Shown in pieces: positions 12,488 through 18,039 of a DNA stretch of 64,000 nt. Numbering within the stretch: the stretch's first letter is position 1; each line of letters starts with the position of its first letter. The stretch comes from Paracoccus sulfuroxidans. GTDB taxonomy: Bacteria; Pseudomonadota; Alphaproteobacteria; Rhodobacterales; Rhodobacteraceae. The notes under the pieces were generated by a model, which saw nothing but the letters and a program-made list of their open reading frames with translations, was not told where the DNA came from and did not search any database. The stretch covers positions 5,001 to 69,000 of the forward strand of contig NZ_VLKU01000006.1 in the NCBI RefSeq assembly GCF_007830335.1, read 5' to 3'. Made by a program: the position numbers and the translations under genes.

Positions 12488-13531
12488 TCAGGCCAGCAGA
12501 AGGATCAGCCCCAGCCCGGTCACGGCGATGAACGCCGTGGCCAGCGCGCCCAGAAGCAGCGGGCGCAGGCCCTTGCGGCGCAGCTTGTGGACGTCCGTCT
12601 CCAGCCCCATGGCGGCCAGCGCGATGGTCAGCAGGAATGAGGTCGCCGTGACGATCTGCCCATGCGTGGCCGGGGGGATCTCGATGACCGAGTTCAGCAC
12701 GACCACCGCGATGAAGCCGAAGACGAACCACGGCAGGGGCGCGCGGGCCTCGGATTTGCGCCCGTCGCCCTGCGCCCGGCGCGAGGCCATGACGCCCAGC
12801 CCGATGATCAGGGGTGCCAGCATCATCACGCGCGAAAGCTTGGCGATGGTGCCGCTTTGGCCGGCCAACTCGCCTTGGGTGAAGGCGGCGGCGACCACCT
12901 GTGCGACCTCATGGATCGTGCCGCCGGCCCACAGGCCGAAGCTCTGTGGCGACAGGCCCAGCGGCCCCGCCAGCAGCGGATAGCCCAGCATCGCGATAGA
13001 GCCAAAGACGGTGACGCAGGCGATGGCATAGGCCACGTCCTCATCCTGCCCCTGCGTCACCGCATTGCAGGCGACGACCGCCGAGGCGCCGCAGACCGAG
13101 GTGCCAGCGGCGATCAGCTCGCTCAGCTTCCGGTCGACGCCAAGCGCACGCCCGGCCAGCTTGGTGAAGACAAAGGTCGACAGCAGCGTCAGCACCACCG
13201 CCGCCAGCGCGCCCGGGCCGATGTCGGCCAGATCGCCCAGCGTGATCTGGAACCCCAGCAGGATGATCGCAAAGCGCAGGATCCGGCGCAGCGAGAAGGC
13301 GACGCCCGGTGCCGTGCCCGGAACCGCGCCCAGCGTGTTGCGCAGGACCAGCCCCATCACCATCGCCACGACCAGCGGGCTCAGCGCCGCCAGACCCGAT
13401 CCGCGCTGGACCACAAAGGCCAGCACCGCGATGCCCGTTGTCAGCAACAGTCCCGGCAGCAGCGGGGCGATCTGTTTTTGGCGGGGCAGGGGCGCTGGCG
13501 CGGAGGTCGGGGTGGAAAGGGAATGGTTCAT
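12488..13531 (-). CDS. YeiH/UPF0324 family membrane protein
   Basis: 347 residues, about ten hydrophobic helices. UPF0324 hallmarks are AAGTSVCGASAVVACNAV and GLWAGGTIHEVAQVVAAAF. The family is often annotated as a putative sulfate exporter on indirect grounds. It is divergent from a LysR regulator with about 100 bases between them, an arrangement like the yeiE-yeiH pair of E. coli, so the regulator probably controls it. It converges with the antiporter gene (5 bases between stops). Confidence 0.88.
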   Translation of the reverse strand: MNHSLSTPTSAPAPLPRQKQIAPLLPGLLLTTGIAVLAFVVQRGSGLAALSPLVVAMVMGLVLRNTLGAVPGTAPGVAFSLRRILRFAIILLGFQITLGDLADIGPGALAAVVLTLLSTFVFTKLAGRALGVDRKLSELIAAGTSVCGASAVVACNAVTQGQDEDVAYAIACVTVFGSIAMLGYPLLAGPLGLSPQSFGLWAGGTIHEVAQVVAAAFTQGELAGQSGTIAKLSRVMMLAPLIIGLGVMASRRAQGDGRKSEARAPLPWFVFGFIAVVVLNSVIEIPPATHGQIVTATSFLLTIALAAMGLETDVHKLRRKGLRPLLLGALATAFIAVTGLGLILLLA

Positions 13532-13633
13532 CTGTCTGGGCCTTCGAATCTGGATTTATCTTCTTTGCACCCTCGGGCTATCAACAGTAAAACGAGTTAT
13601 TCTTGTTTGATTGATCGATTGGATTGATGAATC

Positions 13634-14503
13634 GTGACGCTGGAGCAGCTTCGCATCTTTCTGGCCGTGGCCGGGCAGTCGCATATGACGCGGGCGGCGG
13701 GCATGCTGAACCTGACGCAATCGGCGGTCTCGGCTGCGATTGCGGCGCTTGAGGCGCAGCATGGCGTCCAGCTTTTCGACCGCATGGGCCGCGGCATCCG
13801 CCTGACGGCCGAGGGTGAGGCTTTCGTGCCCGTCGCCCGCGCGGTCCTGTCCGAGGCCGAAACCGCCCGCATCGTCTTGCAGGATCTGTCGCGCGAAACG
13901 CGGGGCACGCTGCGCATCCACGCCAGCCAGACCGTCGCCAGCTATTGGCTGCCGCAGCGTCTGGCGGGCTTTCGGCAGACCCATCCCGGGGTCGAGGTCC
14001 TGCTGCATTTCGGCAATACCGCCGAGGTCGCGCAGGCTGTTCTGGCCGGAGAGGCCGATCTGGGGCTGGTCGAGGGCCAGATTGCGCAGACCCAGCTTCT
14101 GCGCCGGGTCGTGGCGCAGGATGAGATGGTCCTTGTCATGGCCGAGGGGCATCCGCTGGCCAGCCGCCCCCTGTCGGCGCGCGAGTATACGGCGCTTGAC
14201 TGGGTGCTGCGCGAACCCGGCTCGGGCACCCGCTCGGCCTTCGAGGCGCATCTGGGGCAGATGGATCTGACCGTGGCCGATCTGCGCATCGCCATGGAAA
14301 TGCCCTCGAACGAGGCGGTGCTCAGCGCCGTTCTGGCTGGGGATATGGTCAGCATGGTCTCGCAGCGGATGGCGAACCGCTGGCGCGGCGTCCATGCGCG
14401 CCAGGTCGACTGGGCACCGCCGCCCTTGCGCAGCTTTACCGTGCTGACCCATCCGCAACGCCACAGCACGCGGGCGGCGCAGGCGCTGCTGGGCATCCTT
14501 TGA
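13634..14503 (+). CDS. LysR-type transcriptional regulator
   Basis: 289 residues. The N-terminal winged HTH is MTLEQLRIFLAVAGQSHMTRAAGMLNLTQSAVS, followed by a periplasmic-binding-like effector domain. The start is GTG 13634, where the family start motif begins; no in-frame ATG precedes it closely. It most resembles the CbbR/YeiE branch. It is likely to act on the divergent yeiH gene through the AT-richer 13532-13633 spacer. The inducer is unknown. Confidence 0.9.
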   Translation: MTLEQLRIFLAVAGQSHMTRAAGMLNLTQSAVSAAIAALEAQHGVQLFDRMGRGIRLTAEGEAFVPVARAVLSEAETARIVLQDLSRETRGTLRIHASQTVASYWLPQRLAGFRQTHPGVEVLLHFGNTAEVAQAVLAGEADLGLVEGQIAQTQLLRRVVAQDEMVLVMAEGHPLASRPLSAREYTALDWVLREPGSGTRSAFEAHLGQMDLTVADLRIAMEMPSNEAVLSAVLAGDMVSMVSQRMANRWRGVHARQVDWAPPPLRSFTVLTHPQRHSTRAAQALLGIL

Positions 14504-14590: not shown

Positions 14591-15208
14591 ATGACCGCGC
14601 CGCAGGAAACCCGGTTTTGCACCAATTGCGCGACTTCGCTTGAGCGGATCTCGATTGACGAGGACGGCGGCCCGAAAGAGCGGCTGCGCTGCCCGGCCTG
14701 CGGCTGGACCCATTGGAACAACCCCACGCCCGTGCTGGCCGCGGTGATCGAAAACGATCAGGGACAGGTGCTGCTGGCCCGCAATGCGCTGTGGGTCGAA
14801 GGCATGTTCGGCCTGATCACCGGCTTCATGGAGGCAGGCGAATCGCCCGAAGAGGGGATCTGCCGCGAGGTGTTCGAGGAAACCGGCCTGCGCGCTATGG
14901 CCCTGCGGCCGATGGGCGCGTGGGAGTTCCTGCGGATGAATCAGGTGCTGATCGCCTATCACGTCCGCGCCGATGGCGAGGTGACGCTGTCGCCCGAGCT
15001 GGTGGAATATCGCTGGCAGTCCCCGGCCGAGGTCAAATGCTGGCCCGCAGGCACCGGCTATGCTTTGGCCCAATGGGTGCTGGAAAAAGGGCATCAGCCG
15101 CGCTTTGACGCCTTCCGCCCCGGCCAAAGCCCCGAGCCCGATCCGGGGAAATGGCCGCCCCGCCCGTGGCAGGCCGACGCCCGGTTTTTCGACGCGCCCG
15201 AACTCTGA
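14591..15208 (+). CDS. Nudix hydrolase with zinc ribbon, NudC-like
   Basis: 205 residues. The N-terminal zinc ribbon has CTNC and CPAC. The Nudix box GFMEAGESPEEGICREVFEE fits Gx5Ex7REUxEE with all catalytic Glu residues. It resembles the C-terminal half of NADH pyrophosphatase and stand-alone ribbon-Nudix proteins; the substrate is unproven. ATG 14591 has AAGGA upstream. It runs on the same strand as the LysR gene but with an 87-base gap. Confidence 0.85.
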   Translation: MTAPQETRFCTNCATSLERISIDEDGGPKERLRCPACGWTHWNNPTPVLAAVIENDQGQVLLARNALWVEGMFGLITGFMEAGESPEEGICREVFEETGLRAMALRPMGAWEFLRMNQVLIAYHVRADGEVTLSPELVEYRWQSPAEVKCWPAGTGYALAQWVLEKGHQPRFDAFRPGQSPEPDPGKWPPRPWQADARFFDAPEL

Positions 15209-15266
15209 CGGCCTCAGCCGCAAAAAGGGGATGACAGCGGCGTTTCAAGTGCCTATGTTCTGGGGC

Positions 15267-15341
15267 ATGTCGCATATCGCCACCTACACCGCATCGTTTT
15301 ATTGGTTCCGCTGTCCCCAGCGGATGCGGATTGCTGTGTAA
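15267..15341 (+). CDS. aromatic amino acid leader peptide of aroG
   Basis: A 24-residue peptide (from ATG 15267) with consecutive Phe-Tyr-Trp-Phe codons at 15297-15308 and TAA at 15339. An in-frame ATG at 15255 would add MFWG, containing another Phe and Trp. Neither start has a good ribosome site, so the exact start is uncertain. The aromatic codons lie immediately before the first strand of an attenuator, so stalling at low charged tRNA(Phe/Tyr/Trp) would free the antiterminator. It is too short to have any other obvious product role. Confidence 0.72.
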   Translation: MSHIATYTASFYWFRCPQRMRIAV

Positions 15342-15400
15342 GCTCGATAGGCGCGAAACACCCGATCCAAACAGCCGCTGGTCTGACCGGCGGCTTTTTT
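15308..15400 (+). promoter_or_regulatory. ribosome-mediated attenuator controlling aroG
   Basis: Four mutually exclusive strands can be counted. Strand 1 is ccgctg (15308-15313), strand 2 ccagcgg (15317-15323), strand 3 ccgctgg (15375-15381) and strand 4 ccggcggc (15387-15394) followed by six T. Pairing 1:2 is the pause hairpin and 2:3 is a perfect 7-bp antiterminator. Pairing 3:4 is the terminator; its 7-bp stem starts at 15374 and includes one T-G pair. A ribosome stalled on the Phe-Tyr-Trp-Phe codons would cover strand 1. The aroG start is 49 bases after the T run. Confidence 0.78.
15374..15400 (+). terminator. terminator arm of the aroG attenuator
   Basis: A GC-rich hairpin (stem gccgctg / cggcggc, loop of 7) directly followed by TTTTTT. 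As a factor-independent terminator it would stop transcription before aroG when aromatic amino acids are plentiful. Confidence 0.8.
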
Positions 15401-15448
15401 GTCAGATGCCCCCCGGTCCGACCTCAGAAACCTCAGAGAGTATGACCC

Positions 15449-16516
15449 ATGGCCCCCATTCAGACTGACAACCTTCGCATCGCCGAGCTGCGCCCGCTGC
15501 CCGCCCCGGCGGATCTGGCCCGAGAGATCCCGCGCGATGACGCGATATCGCAGACAGTGACCGATTGCCGCCAGGCGGTGCGCGACATTCTGGCCGGGCG
15601 CGACGATCGCCTGCTGGTCGTCGTCGGCCCCTGTTCGATCCACGATCCGAAATCGGCGCTGGAATACGCCCAACGCCTGACCGAGCTGCGCCAGCGTCTG
15701 GCCGACCGGCTGGAGATCGTCATGCGCGTCTATTTCGAAAAGCCGCGCACCACGGTCGGCTGGAAGGGGTTGATCAACGACCCGCATCTGGACGGCTCGG
15801 GCCGGATCGAGGAAGGGCTGCCGCTGGCCCGCCGCTTGCTGTTGCAGATCAACCAGCTTGGCCTGCCCGCCGCGACCGAATTCCTTGACCCGATCATGCC
15901 GCAGTACTTCGCTGACCTGATCGCCTGGGGCGCCATTGGCGCGCGCACCACGGAAAGTCAGATCCACCGGCAGTTGGCCTCGGGGCTGTCCTGCCCGGTG
16001 GGCTTCAAGAACGGCACCGATGGCGGCGTGCAGGTGGCGCTGGATGCAATCCGCTCGGCCCGCTCGTCGCATTCCTTCCCGGCCATCACCGCCGAGGGGC
16101 GCGCGGCGATTGCGACCACCACCGGCAACCCCGATTGCCACGTCGTCCTGCGGGGCGGCAACAAGGGGCCGAATTTCAGCCCCGCTCATATCGACCAGCT
16201 GGCGGCTTCGGCCGCAAAGGACGGGATCGATCCGGGCATCGTGGTTGACGCCAGCCACGCCAACAGCGGCAAGGACCCCGAGCGTCAACCCGAGGTCATC
16301 GCCGATATCGCCGCGCGCATCCGCGAGGGCGAAACCCGCATCCGGGGCGTCATGCTGGAAAGCCATCTGGTCGGCGGACGTCAGGATCAGGTGCCGGGCC
16401 AGCCGCTGACCTATGGCCAAAGCATCACCGACGGATGTCTGGGATGGGAGCGCACGGTCGAGGTGCTGGAGCTTCTGGCCGAGACGGCCGGATCGCGCCT
16501 GCAGCAGGCCGCCTGA
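15449..16516 (+). CDS. aroG: DAHP synthase, class I (AroG/F/H type)
   Basis: 355 residues. It condenses phosphoenolpyruvate and erythrose 4-phosphate, the first step of the shikimate pathway. Type I landmarks are VVVGPCSIHDPKSALEYA, the VYFEKPRTTVGWKGLINDP stretch, GARTTESQIHRQ, GFKNGTDG and VDASHANSGKDP. Length is normal for AroG. No frameshift is seen. Expression is probably controlled by the attenuator directly upstream, which reads out Phe, Tyr and Trp together. Confidence 0.96.
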   Translation: MAPIQTDNLRIAELRPLPAPADLAREIPRDDAISQTVTDCRQAVRDILAGRDDRLLVVVGPCSIHDPKSALEYAQRLTELRQRLADRLEIVMRVYFEKPRTTVGWKGLINDPHLDGSGRIEEGLPLARRLLLQINQLGLPAATEFLDPIMPQYFADLIAWGAIGARTTESQIHRQLASGLSCPVGFKNGTDGGVQVALDAIRSARSSHSFPAITAEGRAAIATTTGNPDCHVVLRGGNKGPNFSPAHIDQLAASAAKDGIDPGIVVDASHANSGKDPERQPEVIADIAARIREGETRIRGVMLESHLVGGRQDQVPGQPLTYGQSITDGCLGWERTVEVLELLAETAGSRLQQAA

Positions 16517-16623
16517 GGGCAATGCCCGCTTGCCAAGCGGACTGACCGCTCCTAAGCCAGCCCTGTCCCCTTGGGGGCAGGGCCGACCACTTCTGGGGCC
16601 GCGCATGATCTGTGAGAGCTTCG

Positions 16624-18039
16624 ATGACTGACAAAACTCCGGGCTGGGGGGCGCTGCTCTCGGGCAAAGATGGCATTCGCTCGCTGGCACTGGCCGGAGG
16701 CGTCGCGCTGCATGCGATCAACGTCTATCTGGTGACGACGATCCTGCCCTCGGTCGTGCGCGACATCGGCGGGTTGGACTATTATGCGTGGAACACGACG
16801 CTGTTCGTCATCGCCTCGATTGTCGGGGCGTCGCTGGCCTCGCGTCTGCTGCGCCGGGCTGGTCCGCGCCGCGCCTATGTCATGGCGGCGGCGCTGTTCG
16901 GCTTCGGCACGCTGATCTGCGCGCTGGCCCCCAGCATGCCGGTCATGCTGGGCGGGCGGCTGGTGCAGGGCGCGGGCGGAGGCGTCTTGCTGGCGCTGAC
17001 CTATGCAATGATCCGCATCGTCTTTCCGCCTGCGCTGTGGCCCCGGGCGATGGGGTTGGTGTCGGGCATGTGGGGCGTGGCCACGCTGATCGGCCCGGCG
17101 CTGGGCGGCATCTTCGCCGACCTGGATGCGTGGCGCTGGGCCTTCGGCAGCGTCATCCCCGCCGTGATCCTGTTCGCCGTTCTGGCCTTCATGGTGCTGC
17201 CTGCCGAAAACCCGGCCGAGACGCCGGACGACCGCCCCGGCCGCCTGCCTGCCTTCCAGCTGGCGCTCTTGTGCGTGATCGTGCTGACCGTCTCGGTCGC
17301 CAGCGCCAGCAGCAGTCTGGCGGTGAACCTGTCGGGCATGGTCATTTCGCTGCTGCTGATGGCCGCGCTGGTCATGGCCGAGCGGCGGGCCGAGGTGCGG
17401 CTGTTCCCGCGCGGCTCGCTGTCGCTGAAGACCCAGCTTGGCCTTGTCTTTGCCACCATGTCGTTCCTGTCGATCACCGTCACCTCAAGCGAGATTTTCG
17501 TGCCCCTGTTCCTGCAGGTGCTGCACGGCCAGTCGCCGCTGGTGGCGGGCTATCTGGCGGCGATCATGGGCGGGGCGTGGAGCGTGGGCTCGATCGCTTG
17601 TTCGGGCGCGCGTGGGGCGGCGGTGCCGCGCATCATTCTGGCCGCACCGCTTCTGGCGATTGCCGGCATGGTGGGGCTCGCGATCCTTGTGCCGCCCGGC
17701 AGCACCGGGGGCTTTGTCGCCATCGCCTCGATTTCCGTCGCGCTGTCGCTGGTCGGTCTGGGGGTCGGCAGCGGCTGGCCGCATCTGCTGACGCAGGTCC
17801 TGCAGGTCGCGCCCGCGGATGAGCAGGTGCTGGCCTCGGCCTCGATCACCACGGTGCAGCTGTTTGCCACCGCCGTTGGTGCGGCGCTGGCCGGGATGGT
17901 GGCGAATATGGGCGGGCTGACCGATCCCGGCGGGTTCACCGGGACCAGTGCGGCCTCGCTGTGGCTGTTCGTGGTCTTTGCGATTGCGCCGGTGCTGGGT
18001 CTCTTCACCGCGCTGCGCGTGGCCCGAGCGCTGCGCTGA
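16624..18039 (+). CDS. MFS transporter, 14-TM type
   Basis: 471 residues, rich in hydrophobic helices. DHA2-like features are VTTILPSVVRDIGGLDYYAW in the first helix region, GGRLVQGAGGGVLLAL (motif C-like) and a long tail of paired helices. It is a drug/metabolite:proton antiporter candidate; the substrate is unknown. ATG 16624 is preferred over GTG 16612 for its GAGAG site. The gene stands alone, 107 bases after aroG. Confidence 0.83.
   Translation: MTDKTPGWGALLSGKDGIRSLALAGGVALHAINVYLVTTILPSVVRDIGGLDYYAWNTTLFVIASIVGASLASRLLRRAGPRRAYVMAAALFGFGTLICALAPSMPVMLGGRLVQGAGGGVLLALTYAMIRIVFPPALWPRAMGLVSGMWGVATLIGPALGGIFADLDAWRWAFGSVIPAVILFAVLAFMVLPAENPAETPDDRPGRLPAFQLALLCVIVLTVSVASASSSLAVNLSGMVISLLLMAALVMAERRAEVRLFPRGSLSLKTQLGLVFATMSFLSITVTSSEIFVPLFLQVLHGQSPLVAGYLAAIMGGAWSVGSIACSGARGAAVPRIILAAPLLAIAGMVGLAILVPPGSTGGFVAIASISVALSLVGLGVGSGWPHLLTQVLQVAPADEQVLASASITTVQLFATAVGAALAGMVANMGGLTDPGGFTGTSAASLWLFVVFAIAPVLGLFTALRVARALR

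Follow-up and report, generated by a model that had tools for sequence, protein, structure and literature searches.

The window analysed here, a stretch of 64,000 nucleotides from Paracoccus sulfuroxidans, carries a gene for a class I DAHP synthase, aroG, which scores 494.7 bits against TIGR00034 (cut-off 173.2). Directly upstream lies a compact element of about 15231-15400, from promoter to T tract, in which a sigma-70 type promoter is followed by a short leader ORF, pairing strands and a terminator. The features are as follows.

15231..15236, + strand: -35 hexamer ATGACA, from a promoter scan and comparison with relatives
15254..15259, + strand: -10 hexamer TATGTT, from the promoter scan and relatives
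15267..15341, + strand: leader ORF of 24 codons, MSHIATYTASFYWFRCPQRMRIAV and stop; start set by comparison with Pseudogemmobacter and others
15297..15308, + strand: putative regulatory codons Phe11-Tyr12-Trp13-Phe14 (TTT TAT TGG TTC); aromatic cluster kept in relatives
15307..15313, + strand: strand 1, TCCGCTG, overlapping the last aromatic codon; from folding
15317..15324, + strand: strand 2, of which CAGCGGA pairs with strand 1 and CCAGCGG with strand 3; from covariation with strand 3
15373..15382, + strand: strand 3, the left terminator arm, with CCGCTGG (15375-15381) as antiterminator partner
15386..15400, + strand: strand 4, ACCGGCGGCT (15386-15395), with the T tract (15395-15400); from folding and covariation
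15449..16516, + strand: aroG, class I DAHP synthase (NCBIfam TIGR00034 / NF009395)

The promoter is the only promoter-like site (15231-15259) found by the scan in the 400 bases upstream of aroG (shuffle mean 0.0), and the leader sits between it and the gene. Its hexamers are separated by a spacer of 17 nt, and 7 nt lie between the end of TATGTT and the leader ATG. Hexamers resembling GTGACA, ATGACA or TCGACA are found at the matching -35 place in most alphaproteobacterial relatives. No Shine-Dalgarno sequence precedes the ATG at 15267, and the leader ends with the stop codon at 15339-15341. The initial annotation had placed the leader start at 15255; this ATG was rejected since it falls within the -10 box and is not shared by relatives, and the conserved start is the ATG at 15267. 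An in-frame ATG at 15231, with which the -35 hexamer begins, was also rejected as part of the promoter and not conserved.

Among 56 alphaproteobacterial loci, the best promoter match places the end of the -10 hexamer 6-9 nt ahead of the leader ATG in 54 (6 or 7 nt in 51), whereas the distances were scattered when the search was repeated in front of the aroG start. A Shine-Dalgarno-like 4-mer ahead of the leader ATG was found in none of the 56 loci. Therefore, with a nearly fixed distance between -10 and ATG and no Shine-Dalgarno sequence, the leader mRNA of the Paracoccus element is predicted to be leaderless, and transcription would start at 15266/15267, on the first base of the leader AUG or the base preceding it. 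A start downstream of 15340 had been named in the initial annotation as speaking against the attenuator; the predicted one is far upstream of that position. A similar spacing of -10 and ATG (TGTGTTATCA...ATG) was seen by eye in Xanthomonadales. In Burkholderiales, TATAAA is located about 35 nt upstream of the leader ATG, which suggests that those leaders have a 5' UTR. The leaders of the Burkholderia group are nearly identical, with MSAKFYFYFFW...PLADREG in most (L026, L028, L030, L037, L039, L040, L042, L047, L072); they appear to have the same sensor with a different translation start, the -10 hexamer being about 35 nt upstream and the leaders not leaderless.

The Phe-Tyr-Trp-Phe run and the four strands of the initial annotation were confirmed. 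Strands 1 and 2 form a 7-bp hairpin, TCCGCTG/CAGCGGA (15307-15313 with 15318-15324; -11.4 kcal/mol, z -6.0), and the aromatic codons meet strand 1 as had been described, since strand 1 begins inside the last of them. The 2:3 antiterminator is a perfect 7-bp helix of CCAGCGG (15317-15323) with CCGCTGG (15375-15381). The 3:4 terminator has 10 bp, including one G.U pair (15373-15382 with 15386-15395; -17.2 kcal/mol, z -4.4), and ends in six T (15395-15400) ahead of aroG. A terminated leader RNA would be expected to have about 134 nt and to end near 15400. From its sequence, the element ahead of aroG is very probably an attenuator of the ribosome-mediated kind, in which a mixed sensor would read Phe, Tyr and Trp.

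Alternatively, the hairpin could simply terminate transcription of the Nudix gene upstream, or act as a barrier to readthrough from it, with the aromatic ORF there by chance. This gene is on the same strand and ends at 15208, and its transcript would enter the terminator; however, a dedicated promoter lies between the two, and relatives that differ in sequence further upstream still have the leader, the promoter and the strands. The chance of such an ORF is also small. When an aromatic cluster was defined as an ATG ORF of 12-40 codons having 4 or more aromatic residues within 6, located in the 350 nt upstream of aroG, such an ORF appeared in only one dinucleotide shuffle out of 2000 made from this region of the window. 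In the working set, the cluster was present at 86 of 89 loci as compared with 8 of 890 shuffled sequences and 4 of 694 control stretches of real sequence, although this set was partly chosen for having a leader and the unbiased figure is the 37 of 38 genes given below. A plain terminator with a fortuitous ORF therefore has next to no likelihood.

Covariation was assessed on 62 distinct strand sets, in which strand 2 was picked by our own rule, blind to strand 3; a rule based on how well it fits strand 3 was circular and was abandoned. Five pairs of helix 2:3 are changed on both sides, with 31 such cells against a shuffled mean of 13.3 (0 of 500 shuffles as high), and strand 2 fits its own strand 3 better than foreign ones when strands are swapped between leaders (permutation p 5e-5), both figures being inflated, as in all shuffle tests, by sequence relatedness. 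Helix 2:3 is paired at 72%, as compared with 16-45% for slid versions, and helix 3:4 at 92.8%, with 50 cells showing double-sided changes. One 2:3 pair is A-U in the window's clade and G-C in most other leaders (CCAGCGG/CCGCTGG versus CTGGCGG/CCGCCAG). Strand complementarity and conservation of the aromatic codons in relatives, two of the checks proposed in the initial annotation, were thus both borne out, 2:3 and 3:4 remaining paired through double-sided changes. For helix 1:2, no covariation support was found across the wider alignment. It is well formed in the window and its clade only, where CCGCC/GGCGG replaces CCGCT/AGCGG in two loci (L082, L094) and the pair is retained; it is weak in Bradyrhizobium, Mesorhizobium and Burkholderia, and weak or absent in other lineages.

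In many leaders outside the window's clade, a GGAGG-like stretch follows strand 2 directly (alignment A2, columns 36-43). It is Shine-Dalgarno-like, lies inside the leader ORF about 15-20 nt before its stop, and might slow the ribosome or extend the pairing.

Transcription attenuation by other sensors is common, and the 5' region might accordingly bind a metabolite, as a riboswitch, or a protein, the ORF being no more than a part of the structure. No family of Rfam 15 matched at gathering score in the window or in 18 relatives, and the RNA outside the strands is poorly conserved, whereas the aromatic codons are kept; such a sensor is very improbable. Matches to RNAI, sroD, ncS01 and isrK (12-16 bits), obtained at a relaxed threshold, were rejected as chance.

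For the attenuator, we infer from the sequence a start site, stalling, termination and a response to each amino acid that can be potentially described as follows. With a transcript that begins at 15266/15267, as predicted, the ribosome would have to initiate on the leaderless 5' end of the leader RNA. When charged tRNA-Phe, tRNA-Tyr or tRNA-Trp is scarce, the ribosome would stall at codons 11-14 and cover strand 1; strands 2 and 3 would then pair, no terminator would form, and aroG would be transcribed. When all three are plentiful, the ribosome would reach the stop codon, and strand 2 would be either covered or paired with strand 1; with strand 2 occupied, 3:4 would form and transcription would end near 15400.

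This scheme was modelled by folding with a ribosome in place, the bases under the ribosome being single-stranded and strand 4 not yet made, as an equilibrium estimate. The modelled probability of 2:3 pairing was 0.99-1.00 with codon 11, 12, 13 or 14 in the A site and 0.28 with codon 15; it was 0.00 with the ribosome at the stop codon and 0.27 without a ribosome, and it also reached 0.89 with Tyr7 in the A site. From this profile, it appears as if the four aromatic codons are the stalling sites that would free strand 2 most fully. In Mesorhizobium, some Bradyrhizobium and Burkholderia, the ribosome-free RNA is predicted to favour 2:3, and therefore the off state would have to depend there on a translating ribosome or on kinetics.

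The attenuator may also be real and yet read only one or two aromatic amino acids (e.g. Phe and Tyr), with the Trp codon incidental. Phe and Tyr codons occur in every one of the 56 alphaproteobacterial leaders and the Trp codon in 48 of them (8 have none), and leaders of the Massilia type have Phe and Tyr only. However, the Trp codon of the window lies within the run where stalling is predicted to free strand 2, and Trp is kept in those 48 leaders though an amino acid with one codon is easily lost. We consider a narrower sensor possible but doubtful.

In a protein search of the order and class in which the leader was ignored, the aromatic leader unit was found ahead of 37 of 38 class I aroG genes; in the remaining locus (L112), the promoter and terminator are the same and the leader is a short one with Phe and Tyr. 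About 50 of the 80 closest aroG genes in GTDB genomes carry the aromatic cluster, many of Burkholderiales and Xanthomonadales having the unit, while among these 80 genes it was not found in Enterobacterales, Neisseriales or Methylotenera. Overall, the unit recurs in many alpha- and betaproteobacteria and in some gammaproteobacteria. When 289 genomes of the class were searched with a covariance model (R1), eight matches of 68-80 bits were obtained, several of them in genomes that had also supplied sequences to the model, and all others were at 37 bits or below. Seven of the eight adjoin a class I aroG; the eighth (G637) is at a contig end, and the aroG of that genome is also cut at a contig end. 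The lower matches that were inspected, one of them (L157) in the same genome as the window, were rejected as hairpins that lack an aromatic leader. In that genome, the aroG site scored 68.5 bits and the next best 25.7.

Class I aroG is patchily distributed: any match was present in 10 of 149 genomes of the family, one of them marginal, and in 19 of 342 genomes of the order. The aroG of the window is an extra class I isoenzyme and not the usual DAHP synthase of the family. No such leader was found at the class II DAHP synthase (G000:C8:200268-201578, L123), trpE, pheA or tyrA of the same genome. Therefore, the shared control of the first shikimate step suggested in the initial annotation is supported by the anatomy for the class I isoenzyme only. 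A tree of 111 enzymes places those of Alphaproteobacteria and Xanthomonadales in one group (58 rows, support 86/98), and every member of this group has a leader. The family holds two separate aroG lineages, that of the window, next to Rhizobium tropici, and that of Leisingera; this fits a scheme in which gene and attenuator were gained together more than once, presumably by transfer.

The element resembles attenuators of the trpL, pheL, ilvL and thrL type in having a short ORF with codons for the end products, a 2:3 helix that competes with 3:4, a T tract and a biosynthetic gene downstream. The trp and phe attenuators read one amino acid, whereas the aroG element mixes all three aromatics and would control DAHP synthase. 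Mixed leaders are known for the branched-chain amino acids and for Thr/Ile. Escherichia coli aroG, aroF and aroH, whose products are homologous class I enzymes, are regulated by TyrR and TrpR. No aromatic leader is present at the enterobacterial loci of our set. In Sinorhizobium meliloti, trpL precedes trpE(G) and codes for a Trp-sensing leader of 14 aa; its leader mRNA begins with the AUG of the leader ORF, and both the RNA (rnTrpL) and the peptide (peTrpL) act in trans (PMC7298713, PMC10117765). Both elements are alphaproteobacterial, the leaderless start of the aroG element being predicted from sequence; rnTrpL has Trp codons before trpE, whereas the aroG element has mixed codons and its own trpE lacks such a leader. 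The uORFC-13-1 motif before Acholeplasma aroF has been proposed as a uORF attenuator with Phe codon(s) and a terminator, in 24 examples (PMC8632094). It shares with the aroG element a uORF and a terminator before a DAHP synthase gene, but it belongs to another phylum (Acholeplasma only) and has a ribosome binding site and at least one Phe codon, while the aroG element is proteobacterial and without a Shine-Dalgarno sequence.

No report of a proteobacterial aroG attenuator was found in the literature covered, which excluded the surveys Panina 2001 and Vitreschak 2004. A survey of attenuators in Actinobacteria gave no aromatic-pathway attenuator except for tryptophan genes (PMC1262725), and aroG is absent from the text of a survey of premature terminators (PMC2965389). 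The aroG attenuator family is apparently unlisted. Its proposed mechanism is classical; what appears new is the mixed sensor, the target and the predicted leaderless start.

In enteric bacteria, the first shikimate step is split among three isoenzymes and two repressors. The present results suggest a simpler solution in many other Proteobacteria, in which one leader would sample all three end products and set one DAHP synthase gene. They add a recognisable RNA family for annotation, predict that many genomes hold small leaderless ORFs that have escaped annotation, and would offer a natural multi-input sensor for strain engineering. A more far-reaching scheme, which we regard as unlikely, is that an old unit of leaderless promoter, three-aromatic sensor, terminator and class I DAHP synthase spread together across Proteobacteria, that the RNA of about 134 nt or the aromatic peptide also acts in trans in the manner of rnTrpL/peTrpL and coordinates the aromatic pathway, and that another logic of switching off applies where 1:2 is weak.

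Downstream of aroG, a multidrug-efflux-like MFS gene is located on the same strand (16612-18039). Since inspection by eye showed no terminator with a T tail between the two, their co-transcription is possible. Further upstream in the window, a membrane protein gene (12488-13531, - strand) is divergent from a LysR-type regulator gene (13634-14503), the best NCBIfam match of which is YeiE, below its cut-off; the pair (12488-14503) is presumably a YeiH-type transporter with its regulator.
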